This document shows positions 3,453 to 29,376 of a stretch of DNA of 64,000 bases, piece by piece (position 1 is the stretch's first letter; each line of letters starts with the position of its first letter). The translations under genes were made by a program, and so were the position numbers. The stretch spans positions 62,001-126,000 of the forward strand of contig PHCB01000007.1 in the NCBI GenBank assembly GCA_002842095.1, read 5' to 3'. The notes below the pieces were generated by a model. It searched no databases, was not told the origin of the DNA, and saw only the letters and a program-made list of their open reading frames with translations. Origin of the DNA: a candidate division BRC1 bacterium HGW-BRC1-1 (GTDB lineage: Bacteria > Sumerlaeota > Sumerlaeia > Sumerlaeales > Sumerlaeaceae).

Positions 3453-5099
3453 TTATTTGGTGTCGTAGTGGATTCCCTTCAATGTGACTTGGTAACTGGC
3501 GGGTTTGGTTGTGATGTTATTGAACTGAATTCGGAGACCAGCGGTTTGGGCGATGGAGCGTTGGAAGTCGCCGTTTCTGCCCCATTTGTTGAGGCTGGTT
3601 TTTTCGGGGTTGATCCAGCGGATTCCGTCGCGTTCGGGGGTGATGGTGTCGAGACGAGCGTCCCACAGGTCGCCGTCGGTGTCGACGAGGCAGACGTTAA
3701 TTTGCAGAGCGCCTGGGGAAGTGGTGGGTGGGATATCGATGTCGAAACCGATGCGGTGCAGTTGAGACAGATTTGCTGTGGCGGCGAAAACGACGTTCGC
3801 TTGCACGTAGGCGTTTTCCTTGCGGAACTCCATGTCGATGGAGGCGGGGAGTCGCATGGGCATCAGGAGAGCCGGGCGCGGGGAATCGCGGATGGCGGCG
3901 GTGGCTTCGTGCGCGGTGAGGATGAGACGCGCGGTTTTGGTTTCGAAGGTGGTGAGGGGTTGCGACGCGGCGGGCTGCGTGCTGGCAGTGTCGCTGGTAA
4001 GGGCCTCCCAAGGCATTCGAACTTCGTCAAAATAGATCGCGTCGGTACCTGTGGCGAAGGTGGCGGCGGCGAGTCCGAGATCGTGGGCGAAAGGATCGGG
4101 TGCCTGCATTGCAGCGACATAGGCCTGCAGGGCAGAGGTGGATAGTTCGGTGTCAGCACAGACTATGGCGGGCCAGCTCCACCATTGTCCCGCGCTTCGG
4201 GCGTCGGGATTATTATCGAAGAAGTCTCGCTGGAGGCGATCGAGGAACTGGCGTGCGGGAGCGTCGCCGTTGGATGCCCATGAGAGAACCATGAGCTGCG
4301 CGAGGACATCGGGATAGGCGACCTTGAGCTTTCCGCTTACGATGCCAAAGGGGTCGATGGTATAGCCGAAAGCCCCAATGGATGGACGCCAGTAGCGCGG
4401 GATGCTGCGCTGGATCTGCTCGCGGTGGGCGGTTGCATCGGCCACGAGGGTGGCGTCGCCAAGTTCGGTGAAGCAGCGTGTAAAGGCGGCCAGGCCGGCA
4501 GCTACTTCGAGGTTATCCATGAGGTACTTCTCGGGGTAGAGCGGTTTTGCATACGTGAGGCCGTCTTCGTCCATGGTAAGGAGGATGGCTCCATACGCTT
4601 TGGTAAGGGCGGGCTGAAGATTTCGCAGAAGCGAAGTGTCGCCGGAGGCGGTGCGATGGCGCCAGGCGACCATGGCAAAAGTGGCGGGGTAACTGTCGCT
4701 GCTGTCGTAGTCATTCTTGCTCTTCAATGCGCGGGGTGGCCCCTCGAAGTCGTAGATCGTTCCATCGGGATTGAGGTTTGCGGCATACCAGCGCAGCCAG
4801 CGTTCGGTTGCGTCGAGGAATCGGGTGCGTTGTGAGATGTCGGTGGTCACGCGGGCGGCCTCGGTCCAGCCAAGGGCGGCGAGGTTTGAGAAGTAGGGGA
4901 CGAGACGCACGGAGGGGTTGGAGGGAAGATTAAGCAGGATGCGCCCTTCGGGATCCTGATATTTAAGAAGACGCTCGGCGAGAGCGCAGGCGCGGGCGGG
5001 GTCAGGGACGAAATGAGAAGCGGCTGTCTCGCATTGGGCTGGTGAACCACCGCCGGCGAGAGCAGCGAGCAGGAGAATGTTGCGGCTAAAGCGTTTCAT
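3453..5099 (-). CDS. Secreted glycosidase-like protein, helical barrel
   Basis: 548 residues with a signal peptide (MKRFSRNILLLAALAGGGSPA). The central region has the repeated helix pattern of (alpha/alpha)6 glycosidases. It shares blocks with the 700-residue protein encoded at 15245: NPDGTIYDF, YDSSDSY, LTYAKPLYPEKYLMDN. The C-terminal ~150 residues look like a beta-rich carbohydrate-binding domain (VQANVVFAATANLSQLHRIGFDIDI). I cannot place it in a named GH family. Its ATG overlaps the stop of the solute-binding protein gene by 4 bp, so it is the last gene of the transporter operon. It probably trims an oligosaccharide outside the cytoplasm for uptake by the transporter; this is inferred from context. 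Confidence 0.75.
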   Translation of the reverse strand: MKRFSRNILLLAALAGGGSPAQCETAASHFVPDPARACALAERLLKYQDPEGRILLNLPSNPSVRLVPYFSNLAALGWTEAARVTTDISQRTRFLDATERWLRWYAANLNPDGTIYDFEGPPRALKSKNDYDSSDSYPATFAMVAWRHRTASGDTSLLRNLQPALTKAYGAILLTMDEDGLTYAKPLYPEKYLMDNLEVAAGLAAFTRCFTELGDATLVADATAHREQIQRSIPRYWRPSIGAFGYTIDPFGIVSGKLKVAYPDVLAQLMVLSWASNGDAPARQFLDRLQRDFFDNNPDARSAGQWWSWPAIVCADTELSTSALQAYVAAMQAPDPFAHDLGLAAATFATGTDAIYFDEVRMPWEALTSDTASTQPAASQPLTTFETKTARLILTAHEATAAIRDSPRPALLMPMRLPASIDMEFRKENAYVQANVVFAATANLSQLHRIGFDIDIPPTTSPGALQINVCLVDTDGDLWDARLDTITPERDGIRWINPEKTSLNKWGRNGDFQRSIAQTAGLRIQFNNITTKPASYQVTLKGIHYDTK

Positions 5100-20039: not shown

Positions 20040-20067
20040 GCAGGTTCGAATCCTGCCGGGCGCACCA
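20040..20067 (+). other. tRNA 3'-end fragment
   Basis: T stem GCAGG, loop TTCGAAT, stem CCTGC, acceptor strand CGGGCGC and ACCA are intact. No matching GCGCCCG acceptor strand, D arm or anticodon arm occurs in the preceding ~100 bases. Its first 19 bases equal 2261-2279 of the tRNA-Arg(CCU). Such a fragment is what integration into, or recombination at, a tRNA 3' end leaves behind. Confidence 0.6.
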
Positions 20068-20105
20068 ATCCCAATTCTTTAATGTATTGGTTATTACCGG
20101 GCCGC

Positions 20106-20134: not shown

Positions 20135-20240
20135 ACAACCTACAATTTTCGCAAACGTCAAAGTCCGAAGCGGTAGAAGATTATTTAGCAGTCTCTTTTT
20201 CCCTTTGAGTCGCTTTCTCATCCCAGATATTAGTTGAATT

Positions 20241-20295
20241 GCAACCGGCGTGCAACCGGCGTGCAACCGGTGTGCAACCGGTGTGCAACCGGTGT
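20241..20295 (+). repeat. Tandem repeat, 11 bp x 5
   Basis: Five contiguous copies of GCAACCGGYGT: two with C then three with T at the ninth base. The 11-bp period is close to one DNA turn, so bound proteins would face the same side. No replication or partition gene lies nearby. It may equally be a plain microsatellite-like expansion. Confidence 0.9.
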
Positions 20296-20450
20296 GCAAG
20301 ACCTCTTTAACGCCCATCGGGATAACGCCTTACAGATAGCTGCTGCGTTCTCTGAGAAGTCTTGTCTGGTGGGTGAACTTGGGCCTCTTGATTATGGATA
20401 TCATCGACTTCATCCCACAAGACCACCCGGCGCAGTCTTTGGGCGCTATT

Positions 20451-20518: not shown

Positions 20519-20557
20519 AGACCGGATGCCTGTCAGTAAGCACTCTCCCCAGGCGTT

Positions 20558-20629
20558 GGGCGCGTAGCTCAGCGGTAGAGCAGCGGACTTCTAAGGTGTT
20601 GGTCCTGGGTTCGAATCCCAGCGTGCCCA
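20558..20629 (+). tRNA. tRNA-Arg(UCU)-like gene with defective anticodon stem
   Basis: Acceptor GGGCGCG/CGTGCCC, D arm GCTC/GAGC and T arm CTGGG-TTCGAAT-CCCAG are all good. The 17-nt anticodon arm reads GCGGA-CTTCTAA-GGTGT. The loop gives anticodon UCU, but the stem has two mismatches next to the loop (A-G, G-G) plus two G-T pairs. CCA is not encoded. Possibly a decayed tRNA or one needing an unusual fold; a one-base shift would read CUA but pairs no better overall. Confidence 0.65.
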
Positions 20630-20766
20630 GCACTACCGCCAAAATTATACAAGTCCTGCATCTTCACCCGTAAACACGAGATTATTAAACGGTCCAAAAT
20701 TATGTTGACATCTCGGAATTGACCCTTCAAACGTTTTAATCCAAATGACTACGGTTCAACGGCTCG

Positions 20767-22539
20767 GTGATGCGTACGTCCACCTACACCTACAACGCGC
20801 TCAATCAGCTTGCATCGCTGCTGGGCGTGGCCCAAGGCGAGCGCTATGATGTGCAGTATGACGCCAACGGCAATCTTGTCTACTACGCGCTCGATCACAA
20901 GGGCGAGGCCGGAATGACCTACTCGTGGACCATCGACGACCGCCTGGCATCGGCGCGCGTGTCCGAAGACGGCTCGCCCGACGCTACTGTCAGCTATGCC
21001 TACGACGCTTCCGGCGCGCGCATCCTGCGCCGGGCACCCGACGGCACGCGCCAGCGCTATTTCTTCCACGGTCTTACAGAGGAAGTGACCAAGCAGAGCG
21101 TCCCCGGTGTGGCGAGTGACACGGCGTCTGCCTGCACGCGTGTGCTGGACGGGTCATTCATCCCCGCGCAGTGGATTGCGCCCTCGGGTAATGTGGCCGG
21201 CGCGTGGAACACCGCCCGGCGCAGTGAAGCTGTGTCGGTGGCGGGCAACACGTATGCCATCCACGGACGCGACTATCGCGGCGGTGGTGCAATGTCGTAT
21301 GACTACAGCGTCACGGGCAAACGCGTGATGAGCGCCTGGGTGCGCAGCGCGGGCGATGCGGAGTTCATCGTGACGGTGCAGAGCAACCAGCAGTTGCGAG
21401 GCCTGCGCTATTGCATGTTCACGAGTAGTAACGATGCGGTGCCGTTCGTCTATTGGCCCAATCTGGCGCTGTTTGGCAGCACGTTGCGGCCCGACGGTGC
21501 ATGGCATCGCATCGAGCGCGACCTCGCGGCGGACCTCGCGGCGGCGTGGCCGGGGGAGACGCTGGTGGCCGTGCGCGGCACCACCTACGCCGCCTACACG
21601 GCAGCGCCGGTGTTAGTCGACGACATCGCTTTCAGCAACGCCATCACCGTGGAGCACAACGTCCTCGGCCCCGGCGAGGTCGCCCACATCCTGCGCACCC
21701 GCACCACCACCGGCCCCGCTGGCGGCTATGCGGCAACCGACGCATGGTACGCCTTCAACCAAGTGGGCAGCGTGCTGAACCACAGCAACTCCAGCGGCGC
21801 CATGACACAGGCGATCGACATGGACGCTTGGGGAATTCCCACAAACGGTACTAACGGATCCTGGAATTCAACCGAGTTATACAGAACCCTGAACAGCAAA
21901 CGGTTCGAATCAAATGCATCGACCGTGTTTTTCTGGCAAAGATGGGCTGACCCGTCCATCGGAATGTTCCTGTCTCAAGACCCGGTAGTTAAGACACGTA
22001 ATCGGACAACGCTGCTTGAGGGTTCACCGGTTATCAACCTGGATCCAAAGGGACTGGACGTATTGGCACTGTTTGATCCAGCTGCGGAAGTTGCTGGAAT
22101 ACAATGCGGTCATCCGGCCGTGATTGTTTGCATGGAAGGGGTGGGGTGTTTTTATTTCTCGTGGGCTGCAAACGATCGGACCACACCGGATGACAACCTT
22201 ACAATTAGATATTACTGTTCGCTTGACGATGCAAAAGCGGACCCTGACCTTGAGAGATACAAGGAGTATAGAAAGTGGACGCGGGGTCGCCGCCAAGATA
22301 TGGCGGCTATTTTGGCTGGTTTATCGTTCAATGGTAAAGAATACGAAATCGCCGGGCGTAACTGTAGCGATTTGCTTTACGTTATGCTTCGCGCTGGTGG
22401 CGTCTCCCCCGCTCAAGTTAAGGACAATTGGAGGCCATCCGATGATTGGAATGCTTTAACCAATCCAGATACCGGCGGATGGTCAAGACCTTGGCCTGGG
22501 CAGCCTAGCGGGTATCCGAAGCAATGTTGCAAACCGTAA
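20767..22539 (+). CDS. Orphan RHS tip 1 with permuted-papain-like C-terminus
   Basis: 590 codons. The frame opens after a TGA at 20746 with no convincing ribosome site, so this is the 3' end of an RHS gene cut from its 5' part. Residues ~1-110 carry YD-type repeats (YDANGNLVYYALD, SYAYDASGARILRR). Residues ~145-305 are a beta-sandwich insert shared with the other tips. RHS core ends around QRWADPSIGMFLSQDP and LDPKGLD. The distinct C-terminal ~155 residues have GHPAVIV, then YFSWA, then GRNCSDLLYVMLRAGGV. A His early and an N-C pair late is the order seen in permuted papain-fold (LRAT/NlpC-like) enzymes; this is inference. The tip is visibly more AT-rich than the core. Confidence 0.75.
   Translation: MMRTSTYTYNALNQLASLLGVAQGERYDVQYDANGNLVYYALDHKGEAGMTYSWTIDDRLASARVSEDGSPDATVSYAYDASGARILRRAPDGTRQRYFFHGLTEEVTKQSVPGVASDTASACTRVLDGSFIPAQWIAPSGNVAGAWNTARRSEAVSVAGNTYAIHGRDYRGGGAMSYDYSVTGKRVMSAWVRSAGDAEFIVTVQSNQQLRGLRYCMFTSSNDAVPFVYWPNLALFGSTLRPDGAWHRIERDLAADLAAAWPGETLVAVRGTTYAAYTAAPVLVDDIAFSNAITVEHNVLGPGEVAHILRTRTTTGPAGGYAATDAWYAFNQVGSVLNHSNSSGAMTQAIDMDAWGIPTNGTNGSWNSTELYRTLNSKRFESNASTVFFWQRWADPSIGMFLSQDPVVKTRNRTTLLEGSPVINLDPKGLDVLALFDPAAEVAGIQCGHPAVIVCMEGVGCFYFSWAANDRTTPDDNLTIRYYCSLDDAKADPDLERYKEYRKWTRGRRQDMAAILAGLSFNGKEYEIAGRNCSDLLYVMLRAGGVSPAQVKDNWRPSDDWNALTNPDTGGWSRPWPGQPSGYPKQCCKP
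21205..21534 (+). repeat. RHS module R1, copy A
   Basis: 330 bp closely matching 25149-25478 with constant offset 3944 and no indels. It encodes NTARRSEAVSVAGNTYAIHG through GAWHRIERDLAAD, the first half of the beta-sandwich insert. It is the point at which tip 3 joins the shared core. Confidence 0.9.
21524..21833 (+). repeat. RHS module R2, copy A
   Basis: 310 bp closely matching 23637-23946 with constant offset 2113. It encodes AADLAAAWPGETLVAVRGTT through MTQAIDMDAWG, the second half of the insert plus an RHS repeat. Similarity ends exactly where tips 1 and 2 diverge. Confidence 0.9.
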
Positions 22540-22635
22540 TGTCATTTGGGCGGCCTTTTGGGACGGACCATTAGCTCGTGCTGAATCATTCTCGTTTTGT
22601 TGCCGTCGTCGTGGCAACGATTGGAGGTATATAGC

Positions 22636-23451
22636 GTGGGTCGGTTAGGCGTTCAGTTGGCGCATGCGGTGCTTGGTGTCTCACTGTTTGTGGCTGTCGC
22701 ACTTTGTCTGCTGATGGTGCATTTTCCCATCGGTTTTGGCTTGGGTGCGGTTAGTTACGCGATCGTGGTTTTGTCGCTGAAACGGACTTTCGAGCGGAGT
22801 GGGGAAGAGCGTGGCATTCTGCACTCGAAGGCATGGTTCTTCGTTATTTATCTGGCTTTGCTCTTTGTTGCCTATTGGCGTTTACCTGCGGCTGCCATCG
22901 GTCCAAACTCAGCGGTCATAGGGGCTTTTGGTACACCTGCGAGCGCAAGCGCAACCGTTCGCGGTTTACTCGATCTGCTGCTCCTGCTTGCGGCAGTTCA
23001 GTTCTTCCTTTGGATTTCAAGTCGGAACACCCATAGAGGCGTTTCTCCTGCGGCAAGGACTAGTCTGGCATTCTTTGTGGTGTTTGGGATTATCGAAGCG
23101 TCCCTCTTATTCGGCGGGCTTACCGACTATGGTTTTGAAACCACGTCTCTGTGGTTGTTCTTTATTATCTATGCGGCTCTCCCCGAGGGTTGTGTCGCTT
23201 TGCTCCTCCAAAATCCCCCGCCATTGACGGACAGGATTGGTTTAGAACAGCGGGTCGGTTTAGCCTCAGGCGCGGCGCTTCTGGTGGCGATTACATTGAA
23301 CATGAATCCTGGGTTGTATGGCATTAATGAGAAGTTCAAAGATGCAACGGTCGTCTACGCTATTGCGGGCATTCAAATCGTAATCTGGGCGGTTCTTGCT
23401 CTGGTAAAGAATCTTCTGGCCTCACTCCGCACGCGGCATCTGCAAGGATGA
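22636..23451 (+). CDS. Polytopic membrane protein, candidate immunity to tip 1
   Basis: 271 residues from a GTG at 22636 with GGAGG at 22623-22627 (8-nt gap); this is better supported than starts further upstream. Seven or eight hydrophobic helices (VLGVSLFVAVALCLLMVHFP, GLLDLLLLLAAVQFFLWIS, TSLWLFFIIYAALPEGCVAL and others). No family recognised. It sits directly behind RHS tip 1, the usual place for a cognate immunity gene. An eight-helix immunity protein would be unusual for a soluble cytosolic toxin and hints at a membrane or periplasmic target. The role is inferred from position. Confidence 0.6.
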   Translation: MGRLGVQLAHAVLGVSLFVAVALCLLMVHFPIGFGLGAVSYAIVVLSLKRTFERSGEERGILHSKAWFFVIYLALLFVAYWRLPAAAIGPNSAVIGAFGTPASASATVRGLLDLLLLLAAVQFFLWISSRNTHRGVSPAARTSLAFFVVFGIIEASLLFGGLTDYGFETTSLWLFFIIYAALPEGCVALLLQNPPPLTDRIGLEQRVGLASGAALLVAITLNMNPGLYGINEKFKDATVVYAIAGIQIVIWAVLALVKNLLASLRTRHLQG

Positions 23452-23455
23452 GGCT

Positions 23456-24607
23456 TTGGGTTGGCGTGGGAATTTACTTTACTCCAACAGCACGTGCGCT
23501 GAGGATGCTTTGGATGGCTACGACCATCTGAACAGTTTGGTGAACCGTGCGGTTGACGGAGGTTTGATTTCGCCGTTGAACAATAACTATGACGCAGTGG
23601 GAAACATTATGCGGATTGGTCTGCCGGACGATAGTATCGCGGCGGATCTCGCCGCAGCGTGGCCGGGCGAGACGCTGGTGGCCGTGCGCGGCACCACCTA
23701 TGCCGCCTACACCGCAGCGCCCGTGTTTGTCGACGACATCGCTTTCAGCAACGCCATCACCGTGGAGCACAACGTCCTCGGGCTTGGCGAAGTGGCCCAC
23801 ATACTGCGCACCCGCACCGCCACCGGCCCCGCCGGCGGCTATGCGGCAACCGACGCATGGTACGCCTTCAACCAAGTGGGCAGCGTGATGAACCACAGTA
23901 ACTCCAGCGGCGCCATGACACAGGCGATCGACATGGACGCCTGGGGCAACACGCTCGCAGAAAATGGTTCATGGGTCGCCATGGAGCCAGCGGGTCGCTT
24001 TTATCAAAGCAAGGCGCACGATCCCTTCGCTAATTGCAATTATCACTTGAATCGATGGTATCAGCCGCAACTGGGTACATGGACCGCTTCAGATCTAATC
24101 GGGCGCCAAGGGGGTAACAATCTCTACCAGTTCTGCTTATCAGACCCGATTCACTTAGTGGACTACGACGGACTTTGCCCCGAAAGCGAGAAATGTGTGG
24201 CGATGATCTTGCGAGTGTACCAAACACATTGGGCTGCCGTTAATGCCAAGGCTAATGCAGACAGAATTGTTGCAAAAGAGAGCTTAGCAACATGTACTAA
24301 AAATGCGTTGATTGGGTTTAGGAACTGCTTGTTGTGGGGAGGTGCATCAACCGTAACCGTCGGTGTTGGCACACGCGCGGCTAAGCTTATTGTTCGTTCA
24401 ACAGCGACTACTTTAGGTGCTGGTATTAGTGTATTGGGCTGTGCTGCCGGGCTCAACAGCGCCTTGTCACAATGTCAAGATAGCTACTATCTGTCTAATG
24501 AAAGAATAAACAACTGGCAGGACGCAGAACGCCATCGGTTATTTAGGGGTCGGATTCAGGAAGAGGCAAACTGTGAGACGCTTTGCACGGAGACCTGTCC
24601 GAAATGA
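23456..24607 (+). CDS. Orphan RHS tip 2 with Cys-rich hydrophobic C-terminus
   Basis: 383 codons opening at a TTG four bases after the membrane-protein stop; the start is uncertain. Residues ~1-60 hold RHS repeat traces (NNNYDAVGNIMRIG). Residues ~61-165 are the shared R2 module. The RHS boundary is HLNRWYQPQLGTWTASDLIG to VDYDGLC. The last ~135 residues form a separate domain with a glycine/alanine-rich hydrophobic stretch (TLGAGISVLGCAAGLNSALS) and several Cys, ending ANCETLCTETCPK. A membrane-active toxin is possible but unproven. The stop overlaps the next ATG (ATGA). Confidence 0.65.
   Translation: MGWRGNLLYSNSTCAEDALDGYDHLNSLVNRAVDGGLISPLNNNYDAVGNIMRIGLPDDSIAADLAAAWPGETLVAVRGTTYAAYTAAPVFVDDIAFSNAITVEHNVLGLGEVAHILRTRTATGPAGGYAATDAWYAFNQVGSVMNHSNSSGAMTQAIDMDAWGNTLAENGSWVAMEPAGRFYQSKAHDPFANCNYHLNRWYQPQLGTWTASDLIGRQGGNNLYQFCLSDPIHLVDYDGLCPESEKCVAMILRVYQTHWAAVNAKANADRIVAKESLATCTKNALIGFRNCLLWGGASTVTVGVGTRAAKLIVRSTATTLGAGISVLGCAAGLNSALSQCQDSYYLSNERINNWQDAERHRLFRGRIQEEANCETLCTETCPK
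23637..23946 (+). repeat. RHS module R2, copy B
   Basis: Second copy of the 310-bp module at 21524-21833. It is joined on its left to a different RHS repeat and on its right to a different tip, as expected if recombination takes place inside it. Confidence 0.9.
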
Positions 24608-25137
24608 AGATTCCCTGGTTTCAATACGAGCTGAGAGGACGCAAACTCGCGTTCTGGGTGGTGGTGTTACCGCTGCTATTTTTCGCGGGGCCGTATGGCG
24701 CTTCCATTCCCGACCGGGTGCGCCTTAGATGGTTTCTGGGCGAGCTGGCAGAAACGCGCTCGGCCAGCGAGATGAACGCCGTATATGACCGTGCGGCCGC
24801 ACAATTCACCATGTTGCAACCACCTGTTAGCCGTCCGGCAATTGCCGCATTTCGAAAGCAGTTGGTAGGCCATCGCTTGAGCGAGGCGCAACGCGTCTTT
24901 CTACTCCACAAGCTCGAAACAATCGGGGACATTCAGGCCGATCCGGGCATTTATGCCCAGATGGCGGAGGACCTTTCCTTGGCTGATGTTTACAAAAGGA
25001 ACCAATTTACTGTGGCAGATGATAACGTCGGGTTCGAAATCTATCAGCTTTTAATGTGGCATAATCGCGCTTTTCAGCAGCTTTACCCTGACTTACTTCC
25101 TGAGAGGAAAGGGGAAGGGATCGGAACTTTCTGGTGA
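24604..25137 (+). CDS. Single-pass membrane protein, candidate immunity to tip 2
   Basis: 177 residues; the ATG at 24604 overlaps the stop of RHS tip 2. One N-terminal membrane helix (LAFWVVVLPLLFFAGPYG, about residues 17-34) is followed by a charged helical domain (LGELAETRSASEMNAVYDRA, QMAEDLSLADVYKRNQF). No family recognised. Translational coupling to the toxin-like gene makes immunity the best guess. Its stop overlaps the first codons of tip 3, so the whole set forms a closely packed transcript. Confidence 0.6.
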   Translation: MKIPWFQYELRGRKLAFWVVVLPLLFFAGPYGASIPDRVRLRWFLGELAETRSASEMNAVYDRAAAQFTMLQPPVSRPAIAAFRKQLVGHRLSEAQRVFLLHKLETIGDIQADPGIYAQMAEDLSLADVYKRNQFTVADDNVGFEIYQLLMWHNRAFQQLYPDLLPERKGEGIGTFW

Positions 25138-26915
25138 TGGAAAACTTTTGGAACACCGCCCGGCGCAGTGAAGCCGTGTCGGTGGCGGGCAACACGTATG
25201 CCATCCACGGGCGCGACTACCGCGGCGGTGGTGCAATGTCGTATGACTACAGCGTCACGGGCAAACGCGTGATGAGCGCCTGGGTGCGCAGCGCGGCCGA
25301 CGCGGAGTTCATCGTGACGGTGCAGAGCAACCAGCAGTTGCGAGGGTTGCGTTATTGCATGTTCACGAGTAGTAACGATGCGGTGCCGTTCGTCTATTGG
25401 CCCAATCTGGCGCTGTTTGGCAGTTCGCTGCGCCCCGACGGCGCGTGGCATCGCATCGAGCGCGACCTCGCGGCGGACATCACTGTGCGTGCGACAACTG
25501 CCCAGGGAGCTGTTTCTGAGGCGGGCGGACATGCATTCGTGCCGAAAACCCCTGAACTGTTCGTGCACGACGATGACGGCAATCTCATCTCAGACGGGCG
25601 CTGGGCGTATACGTGGGACGGTGAAAACCGTTTGAACCGCATGGAGCCGCTTAGGGGTGCAGGCTATCCGGTGTCTCCCGTTGCACGCATCCAATACGCG
25701 TACGACTATAAGGGGCGTCGGGCACGGATGCAGGTTTATGGTCCAGACAACGATCCCCTTTGCTTTGACAAACCTCTGTCGGACATCTGCTATGTGTGGG
25801 ACGGTTGGAATCTTGCGGCCGAGCTCTCCCCGGTGGATGGCTCTACGGTGCGGCGTTACCTGTGGAATACGGCCAAGGGGCACAAGAGCCTTGGGGCGGT
25901 GCGGATGGGCGGCGGCTTTGGCGCAGCCTCGCCCCCCGCGCAGTTCGCCATTGTGGACGGCAACGATAACGTGAGCCTACTGCTCAACGGTGCGTCGGAT
26001 GGGGCGGGCGGGGGTGCGCCCGAGATGAGCGCCGAGTACGAGTACGGCCCCTTCGGCGAACCCCTGCGCGCCACCGGACCCCTGGCCAAGGCCAACCCCG
26101 TGCGCTTCAGCAGCGAACTGCTCGACACCGCCACCGGATGCTACTACTACGGATACCGCTACTACAATCCGGATACGGGAAGGTGGCTGAGCAGGGATCC
26201 GATCGGGGAGGACTTCGAGCCTATTCTCTACAGGTTTTCTGGGAACAATCCTGTTTCTATTGTGGATCATATGGGGCTGCTAATCGCCAATTGTATATGG
26301 GAGCCTGGAACTCAACCCGATCCTTGGCCATTTGACTCAGACGATGCACCGTACAAATCTGCTCGTCCAACAATGGGAGATTATAGCAGATACCATTATG
26401 TTGCTACCGTGTCCGAAATCCCCGGTCTTGGTTTATTAAGACCCAATGCCAAGGCAGCACTTAGACATTACATGATAGCGACTGGGCATGACAAGTCCTT
26501 TGACGCACGCAAGATGCTACGGGAAACGCCCGGGGCTTTTAACACAGTAAACGGTCAAGTATTGGGGGGGGTGAAGTGGTTGAAAGCAAACCGGGGCGTG
26601 CGCCAATTTGTTGCACACTCTCCACTTCCAGAATCCAATAAAGATGGGCCGTTTACAGCTTCCGGAAATGAGGACTGGTACACGGCCGTTGGAGGTTATT
26701 TTATGAGAATCCAGGGTACGGCGGTCTCTTCATGCCACCCGACAGCTCAAGGAAAACGCAAGGTTTACATGTCCATTGAAATCGCAGATCGATACAATTT
26801 CCATAATACCGGGGCGTCCACTGTTTTTGGAATTCCAGACGATGATTTCGCAAGGTTTCATAAAGGGACCTCTGAATTTTCACTTCTGTCATCTGGATGC
26901 TTCCTGCTGACGTAA
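25137..26915 (+). CDS. Orphan RHS tip 3 with unassigned C-terminal domain
   Basis: 592 codons from the ATG at 25137. The frame starts inside module R1, so it has no RHS N-terminus of its own. It then has RHS repeats (DDDGNLISDGRWAYTWDGEN, SAEYEYGPFGEP) and the classical RHS boundary (YYYGYRYYNPDTGRWLSRDP, then VDHMGLL). The last ~205 residues are a distinct domain with LRPNAKAALRHYMIATGHDK and VYMSIEIADRYNFHNTGAST. I cannot name its family. No immunity gene follows; a 68-bp gap leads to an IS element. Confidence 0.7.
   Translation: MENFWNTARRSEAVSVAGNTYAIHGRDYRGGGAMSYDYSVTGKRVMSAWVRSAADAEFIVTVQSNQQLRGLRYCMFTSSNDAVPFVYWPNLALFGSSLRPDGAWHRIERDLAADITVRATTAQGAVSEAGGHAFVPKTPELFVHDDDGNLISDGRWAYTWDGENRLNRMEPLRGAGYPVSPVARIQYAYDYKGRRARMQVYGPDNDPLCFDKPLSDICYVWDGWNLAAELSPVDGSTVRRYLWNTAKGHKSLGAVRMGGGFGAASPPAQFAIVDGNDNVSLLLNGASDGAGGGAPEMSAEYEYGPFGEPLRATGPLAKANPVRFSSELLDTATGCYYYGYRYYNPDTGRWLSRDPIGEDFEPILYRFSGNNPVSIVDHMGLLIANCIWEPGTQPDPWPFDSDDAPYKSARPTMGDYSRYHYVATVSEIPGLGLLRPNAKAALRHYMIATGHDKSFDARKMLRETPGAFNTVNGQVLGGVKWLKANRGVRQFVAHSPLPESNKDGPFTASGNEDWYTAVGGYFMRIQGTAVSSCHPTAQGKRKVYMSIEIADRYNFHNTGASTVFGIPDDDFARFHKGTSEFSLLSSGCFLLT
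25149..25478 (+). repeat. RHS module R1, copy B
   Basis: Second copy of 21205-21534. Right of it the sequence passes into a different RHS segment (DITVRATTAQGAVSEAGGHA) instead of module R2. Confidence 0.9.
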
Positions 26916-26983: not shown

Positions 26984-28155
26984 GGGGGTGCTGATCCGGG
27001 CGAAAGTGCCCGCGCAAGGGGCTTTTCAGGCCGTTTTCACTTCCGCTTCGTTGGTCAGGCACACCTGCCCCTTTCGAGGGCCACGGCTCGCGTGAGGTTG
27101 AAGGCCATCACGCCCATGGTCATTTGCATCATCACGCGGTCCATGCCGCGGTAGACTGCCCGCGCGCATCCGCGCCAGCGTTTGAGGCAGGCATTGGCCC
27201 CTTCGATGAAGCCGCGCATGCGCGCAATCGAGCGGTTGCGCCCGCGCTGCCACGGGGTCAGTTCCCTGCCCGGCCTGGCTCGGCGCATGATGGAGGCCCG
27301 GGCGCCGCGGCTGCGCACCAGTTCGCGCGCCGCGCGGCTGTCGTAGCCCTTGTCGGCCAGCACCTCGCCCTCCGTGCCGTCCACCAGATCGGCAAACATC
27401 TGTGAGTCATGGACGCTGGCCGCCGTCAGCACATGGTTGGTGATCAGGCCCGTCTCGCGGTCCTGCCCCAGGTGCAGTTTGAAGCCGTAGTGGGGCTTGC
27501 CGTTTTTGACCGTGAAGTCCGCGTCGGGGTCCAGGGGCGCCTTGGGCTGCCGCTCGGGCCCGTCACCGCCCTCGCCATCAGCAGCCCTGGGCTTGCGCGG
27601 CGGGCGGACGGCGGCATCCACCAGCGTCGCGTCGACAAGCTTGATGTGCCCCTTGCGCACCCCGATGCCCTGCTGCTCAAGCTGCACCGTCACCTCGGCG
27701 AACAGATCGTCGAGCAGCCCCGCCTCGCGAATGCGGCGCCGGAACACCACCACCGTCGTGTCATCGGGAACATTGTCGCCCGCCCCAAGACCCAGAAACT
27801 GCCGGAACGACAGCGAGTCGCGCGCCATCCAAACCGCATCGCGGTCGCTCAACTGGTAGAAACGCTCGAGCAGCAGGAGCTTGAACAGCATCACCGGATC
27901 CACCGGCTCGCGGCCCGCCCCGCCAAACTTGTACGCCTGCTCCAGACAGCCACGCAGTCGCTCCCAGTCGATCAACGTCGCCAACCGCTCAAGCACCTCG
28001 CTCTTGGGCGGCGCCGCCAGAAAACTGGAGAAAAAATCGGGGGAAGAAGTGCAAGACTTGCGGGCCATCGGAGAACCTTTCGTGCGCGGAGAGAATGACC
28101 CTAAACAAAAGCAAACATCATGCCGGAAACGGCGGGATGATTCTTCAGCAGTCCC
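26984..28155 (-). mobile_element. IS5-like insertion sequence
   Basis: One transposase gene bounded by short imperfect inverted ends: GGGGGTGCTGA at 26984 and, read inward from the right, GGGACTGCTGA ending at 28155 (9 of 11 match). The right end continues as AGAAT, like many IS5-group ends. I could not establish a target duplication with confidence. The element separates RHS tip 3 from a beheaded toxin at 28156, so insertion was probably accompanied by deletion. Confidence 0.7.
27055..28068 (-). CDS. IS5-family transposase
   Basis: 337 residues from the ATG at 28068 (MARKSCTSSPDFF). The N-terminal DUF772-type domain reads PVDPVMLFKLLLLERFYQLS with DRDAVWMARDSLSFRQFLGL. The DDE domain follows: first Asp in HIKLVDATLVDAAV, second in EVLADKGYDSRAARELV, and the Glu in MRGFIEGANACLKRWRGCAR, which corresponds to the family's Y(2)R(3)E-like region. 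The frame appears intact, so the element could still be active. Confidence 0.93.
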   Translation of the reverse strand: MARKSCTSSPDFFSSFLAAPPKSEVLERLATLIDWERLRGCLEQAYKFGGAGREPVDPVMLFKLLLLERFYQLSDRDAVWMARDSLSFRQFLGLGAGDNVPDDTTVVVFRRRIREAGLLDDLFAEVTVQLEQQGIGVRKGHIKLVDATLVDAAVRPPRKPRAADGEGGDGPERQPKAPLDPDADFTVKNGKPHYGFKLHLGQDRETGLITNHVLTAASVHDSQMFADLVDGTEGEVLADKGYDSRAARELVRSRGARASIMRRARPGRELTPWQRGRNRSIARMRGFIEGANACLKRWRGCARAVYRGMDRVMMQMTMGVMAFNLTRAVALERGRCA

Positions 28156-28295
28156 ATAAAGTTGGATTGTCTCGGGCATTCAATCACTATGGACTCAAAT
28201 CTATAAATCTTGTATTCGATGATATCAATGGCTACATTGATGGTCATAACGTAGATTATTCATTGCGGCAAGCTGTTGGTGCAGGTGCCAAGTGA
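28156..28295 (+). pseudogene. 3' remnant of an RHS toxin tip
   Basis: An open frame emerging from the IS end encodes KVGLSRAFNHYGLKSINLVF, then DDINGYIDGHNVDYSLRQAV and GAGAK before a TGA that overlaps the GTG of the next gene. It has no start of its own. The overlap with a membrane-anchored candidate immunity gene shows it is the tail of a former toxin gene. Confidence 0.6.
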
Positions 28296-28909
28296 GTAGA
28301 CCTACACTGACAATGAGGGGTTGCGCTATCAGTTCTTTGCGAGCCACGTTACGGTTTCTGGTTATTGCTAGCATTGGGGCGATGGCTTTCTATCTTGTAC
28401 AGTGTAATGCCGGGTTGCGAAAAGAACTCGCCAAGCTCGATAAGCCGCGCACGATCGTGGAGCCTGTCAGTGATGATCTGTTGCTTTATAGGGTTCTCGG
28501 CCTTCCCAAATCGGAAGGGTTACAGATTGAAAAAATCCATGTACCGGAATTACGATTCACCAACACGGTATCGATCCAGTTCCTCGATTTCAATGGTGTG
28601 ATGCCATCGAAACTTAAACAGGGACGCTGGGAGTATTCCCCGAATGACTTGATGTCCGCAGTGTCCACTCCACCCCCGCGCTGGGCCGCAGGAATTGTGT
28701 GGGAGGGAGAGGATTACTATCAGCGTTGGATGCCCATACGCCTGATGCGTCATGTATCAAAGGGTATTGCGATAGTAGAAGACACGAGTGTGTCGGTGAC
28801 ATTAACCAAATTACAAGGTGATGGTATTGAGAACAAGTGGTGTGTGTTTTTTGAATCAACACTTGTATCGAAAGAATGGCACGAGATATGCTGTACAGAA
28901 AATAATTAG
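28292..28909 (+). CDS. Membrane-anchored protein, candidate immunity of lost toxin
   Basis: 205 residues from a GTG at 28292 that overlaps the stop of the truncated toxin (GTGA). An N-terminal helix (FLVIASIGAMAFYLVQCNAG, about residues 21-41) is followed by a beta-rich soluble part. No family recognised. The gene is distinctly AT-richer than the RHS cores. It survives although its toxin has been beheaded, as an 'orphan antidote'. Confidence 0.6.
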   Translation: MSRPTLTMRGCAISSLRATLRFLVIASIGAMAFYLVQCNAGLRKELAKLDKPRTIVEPVSDDLLLYRVLGLPKSEGLQIEKIHVPELRFTNTVSIQFLDFNGVMPSKLKQGRWEYSPNDLMSAVSTPPPRWAAGIVWEGEDYYQRWMPIRLMRHVSKGIAIVEDTSVSVTLTKLQGDGIENKWCVFFESTLVSKEWHEICCTENN

Positions 28910-28989
28910 CCTTGAACGGGAGATCAACTAAGGTGGGGAGGAGCAAATGATTGCATTATACTTCACGATTCGCTACGAGTGCGTCTGCA

Positions 28990-29376
28990 ATGACAAGAAT
29001 TAGCACCATCGTGCCTCCCAACACTCGGACAACTCTGGGGTGGTTTGCGCTCGTCGTTGGCGTTCTTGTCAACCTGTGGGTACTGTGGGTAGTGCTTCCG
29101 GAAGTTGGCAAGGAGATGTTCCGTTTCGGTCGTGTGCCGGACGTTTCGTCGGGCGTCGGTCTTATTGGGTGGCTCAAGCACGTCTTGACGCTCGGCTGGC
29201 TTCCCGCGGAAGCAGTTCACATCCATCTCGTCCGCAAAATCACGTTGGCGGCGGGAAACGCGGTTGTCCTCGCGGTAGTCGCTTCCGCACTTGGACGGCG
29301 CCCGGCATTTGCCGTCGGCGTTCTTGTGGTGGTGACGCTGGCCCTTCTGTTTAGCCCGGCGGTTGGGAATCTCTGA
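28990..29376 (+). CDS. Small polytopic membrane protein
   Basis: 128 residues from the ATG at 28990; a TTG at 28951 would add 13 residues. Three or four helices (LGWFALVVGVLVNLWVLWVV, ITLAAGNAVVLAVVASALG, FAVGVLVVVTLALLF). No family recognised. GGGGAGGAG at 28935-28943 is placed for an ATG at 28947, which opens an 18-codon frame ending in TAG; this frame may be a leader or the scar of an older gene. Position suggests another immunity-like passenger of the RHS island. Confidence 0.5.
   Translation: MTRISTIVPPNTRTTLGWFALVVGVLVNLWVLWVVLPEVGKEMFRFGRVPDVSSGVGLIGWLKHVLTLGWLPAEAVHIHLVRKITLAAGNAVVLAVVASALGRRPAFAVGVLVVVTLALLFSPAVGNL

Follow-up and report, generated by a model that had tools for sequence, protein, structure and literature searches.

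Tox-Act1, a type VI secretion system (T6SS) effector of Salmonella, is described as a permuted NlpC/P60 enzyme which needs its histidine and its cysteine for toxicity, cleaves phosphatidylglycerol and phosphatidylethanolamine and acts in the periplasm, and its immunity protein Imm-Act1 is described with two transmembrane helices (PMC12994826). In the same source, TseH, DUF4105 (Lnb) and YiiX are three of the clades that make up the permuted NlpC/P60 group together with Tox-Act1 and LRAT; it also reports the permuted order as well as phospholipase activity for TseH. Here, an array of Rhs cassettes was analysed in a stretch of 64,000 nucleotides (the window) from the candidate division BRC1 bacterium HGW-BRC1-1 (contig PHCB01000007.1, positions 62,001 to 126,000). 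The first cassette of this array ends in a variable C-terminal domain, tip-1, and the gene behind it encodes a protein with eight hydrophobic segments. The tip-1 domain is probably a lipid-acyl-cleaving toxin of an orphan Rhs cassette, with the eight-helix protein as its cognate membrane immunity and the array as a store of tips.

The open reading frame (ORF) 20767-22539 comprises 590 codons, its frame being open from about position 20749. It starts within the Rhs core, passes the core end LDPKGL and ends in tip-1, a domain of 160 amino acids at 22057-22536 on the forward strand (stop codon 22537-22539). An earlier reading of this DNA from its letters (the sequence-only reading) had placed a candidate toxin domain at the C-terminal tip, and a tip domain was confirmed there; the start at 22057 lies 13 bases before the position 22070 that it had given. 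The His-then-Asn-Cys order that it had noticed was found in one frame (frame 1 of the ORF), with an early GHPAVIV at 22108-22128, containing the putative catalytic His-19 (codon 22111-22113), and a late RNCSDLL, whose Asn-Cys at 22360-22365 contains the putative nucleophile Cys-103. This arrangement occurred in four of 200,000 shuffles of tip-1 and in one of the 356 stop-to-stop frames of at least 80 amino acids in the window, namely that of tip-1, both counts referring to a pattern chosen after it had been seen. Neither tip-1 nor the membrane protein matched a Pfam or NCBIfam model up to an expectation value (E) of 10, nor a PADLOC model. The PHROGs search with tip-1 gave a single match of unknown function (E 0.4), the sole entry listed among solved structures was an antibody domain (E 0.65), and no published description of the tip family turned up in literature searches.

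With tip-1 alone as query, the search of 193 genomes gave, besides the window, only four weak matches (L002-L005), which were read and judged to be due to chance. No real relative was found among 40 genomes of the phylum (a set overlapping the 193), viral contigs and genome contigs, nor among the PLSDB plasmids (best E 2). The DNA pattern GH-x-A ... Y-x5-NC-x-D returned, from 386 genomes, the window and two places judged to be chance from the listing. A search with a fixed DNA pattern surrounding the Cys gave 12 matches in genome contigs and two in viral contigs; none of the 12 was an Rhs tip with an upstream GH motif, and one of the 14 matches was real, an Rhs tip on viral contigs (L026/L028) located straight after GYIDPSGLN. 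TBLASTN with this tip led to two copies on plasmid pHIC of Haliovirga abyssi. A three-row profile (A1) matched five of 345 Bacteroidota genomes at E 0.01, two of which were real and carried three loci; the other three (L033-L035) were judged to be chance. TBLASTN with one Bacteroidota tip revealed a further relative on pASTEX02 of Asticcacaulis excentricus, and a seven-row profile revealed L055 in one further genome of 164 and L057, L058 and L059 in three further genomes of 123. Profile A1 found nothing at E 1e-3 in 299 Pseudomonadota genomes, the viral contigs searched with A1, A2 and another pattern yielded nothing beyond L026/L028, and the Haliovirga tip had no match among phages. Altogether, ten relatives were found in viral contigs, plasmids and genomes, every one of them an Rhs tip. 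A standalone ORF of Xenorhabdus innexi outside an Rhs gene (L030, 1192-1869), permuted-papain-like with GHAAIYIG and KNCATM, was matched by A1 at E 0.003 and was kept out of the tip family.

The kinship of tip-1 to these tips was assessed by a leave-one-out comparison. A profile of the other ten tips found tip-1 at E 1.3e-8 with 32.3 bits, the best of 2,555 decoys (2,200 tip shuffles and 355 other window frames of at least 80 amino acids) reaching 11.6; an earlier profile of five relatives without tip-1 had found it at E 9e-8. Five residues (His-19, Gly-30, Asp-81, Tyr-96 and Cys-103 in tip-1 numbering) are invariant in all 11 tips. Some circularity is present because L026 was picked via the motif of tip-1 itself, which the leave-one-out comparison answers in part.

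Profile-profile comparison joined the tips significantly to one family only, Lnb_N (PF13387). The hhalign alignment of the 11 tips with Lnb_N, a set formed by 14 of 16 fetched loci (two were lost to the motif filter), covers 96 columns, beginning at GH and ending at NC, and keeps both the His and the Cys pairs in register. Its score of 28.05 was reached by none of 200 column shuffles (best 19.8), and an unrelated family scored 15.1. Without tip-1, the remaining ten tips scored 30.3 against Lnb_N, compared with 22.7 for the best of 300 shuffles and 11.1 for the reversed alignment. Weak Pfam matches of single members pointed to TseH in two of the 11 (best E 0.024), to Lnb_N in one (0.019) and to Peptidase_C92 in one (0.11); tip-1 itself matched neither the TseH model PF25218 nor the Lnb_N model. 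Among the sequences of the Protein Data Bank (PDB), the 11-tip profile had one match below E 0.01, 6v98_A ('Cysteine hydrolase', E 0.003), which covers only 25 residues around the Cys and which we take to be TseH. Low-confidence structural models show strands followed by helices, one helix beginning at the Cys. The order of His-19 before Cys-103 is the mark of permuted NlpC/P60 enzymes, in which these residues would be catalytic. The permuted papain assignment of the sequence-only reading is thus borne out by the leave-one-out result, the invariant His and Cys in 11 tips and the Lnb_N alignment in register, and tip-1 very probably belongs to the permuted NlpC/P60 (permuted papain) superfamily. 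As judged from sequence, the tip family is an uncatalogued variant, probably of permuted-papain toxins related to lipid-acting enzymes.

The predicted immunity gene behind tip-1 (22636-23451, forward strand) has an intact frame, encodes 271 amino acids and belongs to no matched family. It was correctly read earlier as having its own GGAGG-GTG start, the ribosome-binding site GGAGG (22623-22627) lying eight bases before the GTG codon at 22636. Kyte-Doolittle analysis (window 19) revealed eight hydrophobic segments at a threshold of at least 1.3 and six at 1.6 or more; the label 'eight-helix' is fair because of the eight segments at the former threshold. In 193 genomes, only two other matches to this protein were found, a transporter-like protein (L008, E 0.004) and a sequence with internal stops (E 0.009), both judged to be chance.

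At 11 of the 12 loci of the tip family, the gene that follows the tip is predicted to code for a membrane protein. Polytopic partners with three to eight segments occur at five loci (the window, L028, Asticcacaulis, where the gene is unannotated, and the two Haliovirga copies), and at six others (L031, L036, L032, L055, L057 and L058) the partner has a single N-terminal segment followed by about 150-180 residues. The single-pass partners of L032, L055, L057 and L058 form one homologous group and those of L031 and L036 another, whereas the polytopic partners show no BLASTP similarity to one another except for the two Haliovirga genes. As a control, ten of 86 plasmid records with other Rhs core ends were picked by hand from environmental species (one of them was taken by its own match), and the next gene was found in eight. 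It was of membrane type in three of the eight (one segment in two, two segments in one), and one of the five segment-free genes resembles a lipoprotein by eye. The contrast of 11/12 with 3/8 is suggestive on these small numbers. A single-segment gene also stands behind tip-2 of the window array. In Asticcacaulis excentricus pASTEX02 (L037), an unannotated ORF of about 145 amino acids with three strong hydrophobic segments lies at about 4474-4908, between the Rhs tip and an IS5 element. The recurrence of a membrane partner speaks for action in the membrane or the periplasm, and the earlier suggestion of a lipid or periplasmic target is very probably right as regards the site.

The best-supported and most likely reading is that of a cysteine acyl-hydrolase or acyltransferase toxin whose targets are the acyl chains of lipids at the periplasmic face and whose immunity protein resides in the membrane. 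In such a mechanism His-19 would activate Cys-103, and Cys-103 would attack the acyl bond via an acyl-enzyme; Asp-81 is a candidate for a polar third residue of the site. The relationship of tip-1 to Lnb, TseH and Tox-Act1 makes an acyl chain the most likely substrate, one belonging to a phospholipid or a lipoprotein at the periplasmic surface of the target membrane. The eight-helix protein would reside in the membrane at the site of damage and would either block the enzyme or shield its substrate. The array, with its core piece, tip, immunity gene and two further cassettes, would offer alternative tips able to recombine onto a full-length Rhs gene. It is very improbable that immunity works by repair, the polytopic partners being membrane enzymes that re-acylate, for example, lysophospholipid or lipoprotein; toxin and membrane partner would then each carry out one half of an acyl-transfer cycle, which may also be true of LnsA and LnsB. 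Because the recurrent membrane partners are of several unrelated kinds, they could show directly whether immunity to toxins of this type has to act in the membrane.

The Rhs core fragment in front of tip-1 (20767-22056, forward strand) contains YD repeats up to the core end LDPKGL and was recognised by NCBIfam and by the repeats D1 and D2. In the ORF 20767-22539 the YD repeat model scored 19.3 bits, above its cut-off of 15.8, and the Rhs-associated core model TIGR03696 scored 23.4 bits (E 6e-5), under its cut-off of 32.5; the latter model exceeds its cut-off in the ORFs of the second and third cassettes, with 76.9 bits in the third. The variable tip stands straight after the core end, and the tips of the relatives occupy the equivalent position. 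Three cassettes with tip-1, tip-2 and tip-3 follow each other in a row, linked by core pieces of 94-95% identity. On the forward strand, the 3' core segment recurs at 23637-23936 (94% identical to 21524-21823), from where the sequence runs into tip-2 (ORF end 24607), and the 5' core segment recurs at 25149-25448 (95% identical to 21205-21504), where the third cassette starts (tip-3 ORF end 26915). Base composition is a mosaic, with a G+C content of 62-66% in the core against 48-53% in the tips and the membrane gene, and of 65% at 20767-21862 (core) against 51% in tip-1. One core segment of 104 residues has two copies in the whole assembly (94.8% complete), both within the array. The array as it stands is a set of orphan cassettes, since the window holds no Rhs N-terminus and this core segment occurs in the assembly only twice, both times in the array. 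Two Bacteroidota arrays (L057 and L058) have the same layout as the window, with core, tip, immunity gene, core fragment and second tip.

Several observations weigh against a functional lipid-directed toxin at this locus. No Rhs N-terminal delivery domain or full cocoon was found in the window, and the ORF 20767-22539 begins in the middle of the core; because the Rhs N-terminus is absent, its product may be neither made nor delivered. Among the 11 tips, tip-1 has diverged furthest (32.3 bits against 56.5 to 128 for the other ten), and the IGNDxTGW stretch seen in most of them is missing from it. Since its leave-one-out score lies above those of all decoys and below those of the other ten, tip-1 is by profile score a true but the most distant member of the family. 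With eight tips, the local-mode hhalign comparison with Lnb_N was not significant (10 of 200 shuffles reached the score), so that the Lnb_N link rests on the deeper sets of 11 or ten tips. One member fits the unrelated Pfam model PF16450 better, at E 6e-4. The single-sequence models had low predicted local distance difference test (pLDDT) values, 52.7 for tip-1 and 35.5 for the L028 tip, and Foldseek and VIA-align listed no papain-like chain with this low-confidence tip-1 model. Finally, no membrane gene adjoins the tip at L059.

Some of these observations are also what a decayed cassette would leave, whose tip was formerly a permuted papain and which is now an orphan neither expressed nor active. 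The missing Rhs N-terminus, the core segment present only twice in the assembly and only in the array, the transposase at 27055-28179 and the divergence of tip-1 are consistent with it, against which stand the frame that stays open for 590 codons and retains Asp-81 and Tyr-96 along with the His and the Cys, the membrane gene with its intact frame and ribosome-binding site, and the tips in arrays at L057 and L058. Decay is doubtful on this balance, although its probability is appreciable. The same fold could also belong to a peptidase or amidase acting on peptidoglycan, the membrane protein being a periplasm-facing immunity protein, as toxins with NlpC/P60 domains of canonical order are predicted to be wall hydrolases (PMC3482391) and as the single-pass partners at six of 12 loci have an N-terminal transmembrane segment with a domain that possibly faces the periplasm. 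This is unlikely, as the His precedes the Cys in the tips, a permuted order that PMC12994826 ties to lipid substrates, the sole significant family link is to Lnb_N, and five of 12 partners are polytopic.

A further alternative is that the pair is a two-component acyltransferase like staphylococcal LnsA and LnsB, secondarily fused to an Rhs core. The tips are kin to Lnb_N, which Pfam names after lipoprotein N-acyltransferase; however, all 11 tips are Rhs tips, and the membrane protein has no Pfam match up to E 10 and no EExxxR motif, presumably the mark of CPBP proteins. In LnsAB, an integral membrane protein does work together with an enzyme of the permuted NlpC/P60 type, and LnsB itself is described as only remotely similar to CPBP (PMC7387801). 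Such an enzyme is very improbable here because the partners of the tip family differ between loci, as immunity genes would and an enzyme subunit would not. That the motif arose by chance, the tip being an unrelated toxin and the membrane partner a coincidence, is extremely unlikely: no library or solved structure names tip-1 alone, but its homology to ten Rhs tips with invariant His and Cys, already evident from the leave-one-out result, argues against it. The lipid-acyl-cleaving toxin with membrane immunity remains the preferred reading.

The remaining features of the array and its surroundings were recorded as well. Tip-2 (24170-24604) is a hydrophobic domain rich in Gly, Ala and Val, perhaps membrane-active, with no Pfam match; the gene behind it (24607-25137, forward strand; listed ORF 24583-25137) has one N-terminal hydrophobic segment. 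Tip-3 (26283-26912) has no Pfam match either and carries DRYNF, reminiscent of a DxYD motif that we associate with lipid II hydrolases of the colicin M type. No close next gene was found after tip-3, where a DDE transposase comes next. Beyond the transposase, two small genes (28292-28909 and 28951-29376) encode products with one and three hydrophobic segments and are possibly displaced immunity genes of the array. Just before the array, at 20557-20631, ARAGORN called a tRNA-Pyl (anticodon cta), which by eye resembles a tRNA-Arg(TCT) whose anticodon stem is damaged, and a stretch resembling a tRNA 3' half, GTTCGAATCCTGCCGGGCGCACCA, lies at about 20045-20070. Because of this tRNA call and this upstream stretch, the array may be located at a tRNA integration site. 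Upstream of the array, at 20240-20300, a short sequence of some 11 bases (ccggtgtgcaa) forms a direct repeat. The flanking genes are ordinary and encode an ADP-ribosylglycohydrolase, a LacI-type regulator, a DUF4434 protein, a Golvesin/CARDB protein, an AI-2E transporter and a radical SAM protein.

In comparison with known systems, Tox-PL1 and other papain-like polymorphic toxins likewise carry papain-like cysteine enzyme domains at toxin tips, but the signature order given for them is NC-H-DxQ, with the Cys before the His (PMC3482391), whereas the His precedes the Cys in tip-1. LnsA and LnsB resemble the window pair in joining an NlpC/P60 enzyme with an integral membrane protein and differ from it as a two-component lipoprotein N-acylation system described with two noncontiguous genes and no Rhs (PMC7387801). 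TseH (PF25218), a T6SS effector, is matched below significance by two of the 11 tips and not by tip-1. Lnb_N (formerly DUF4105), the lipoprotein N-acyltransferase of Bacteroides, shows profile-profile similarity to the tips over the stretch between GH and NC, the catalytic residues falling into register; unlike tip-1, it is not an Rhs tip. Phospholipase activity has been demonstrated for Tox-Act1, whereas tip-1 is known from its sequence, and the two transmembrane helices of Imm-Act1 contrast with eight in the window partner, which has little outside the membrane. By description, Tox-Act1 with Imm-Act1 is nevertheless the closest characterised system, sharing an early His, a late Cys, the role of a toxin domain in a conflict system and a partner that spans the membrane.

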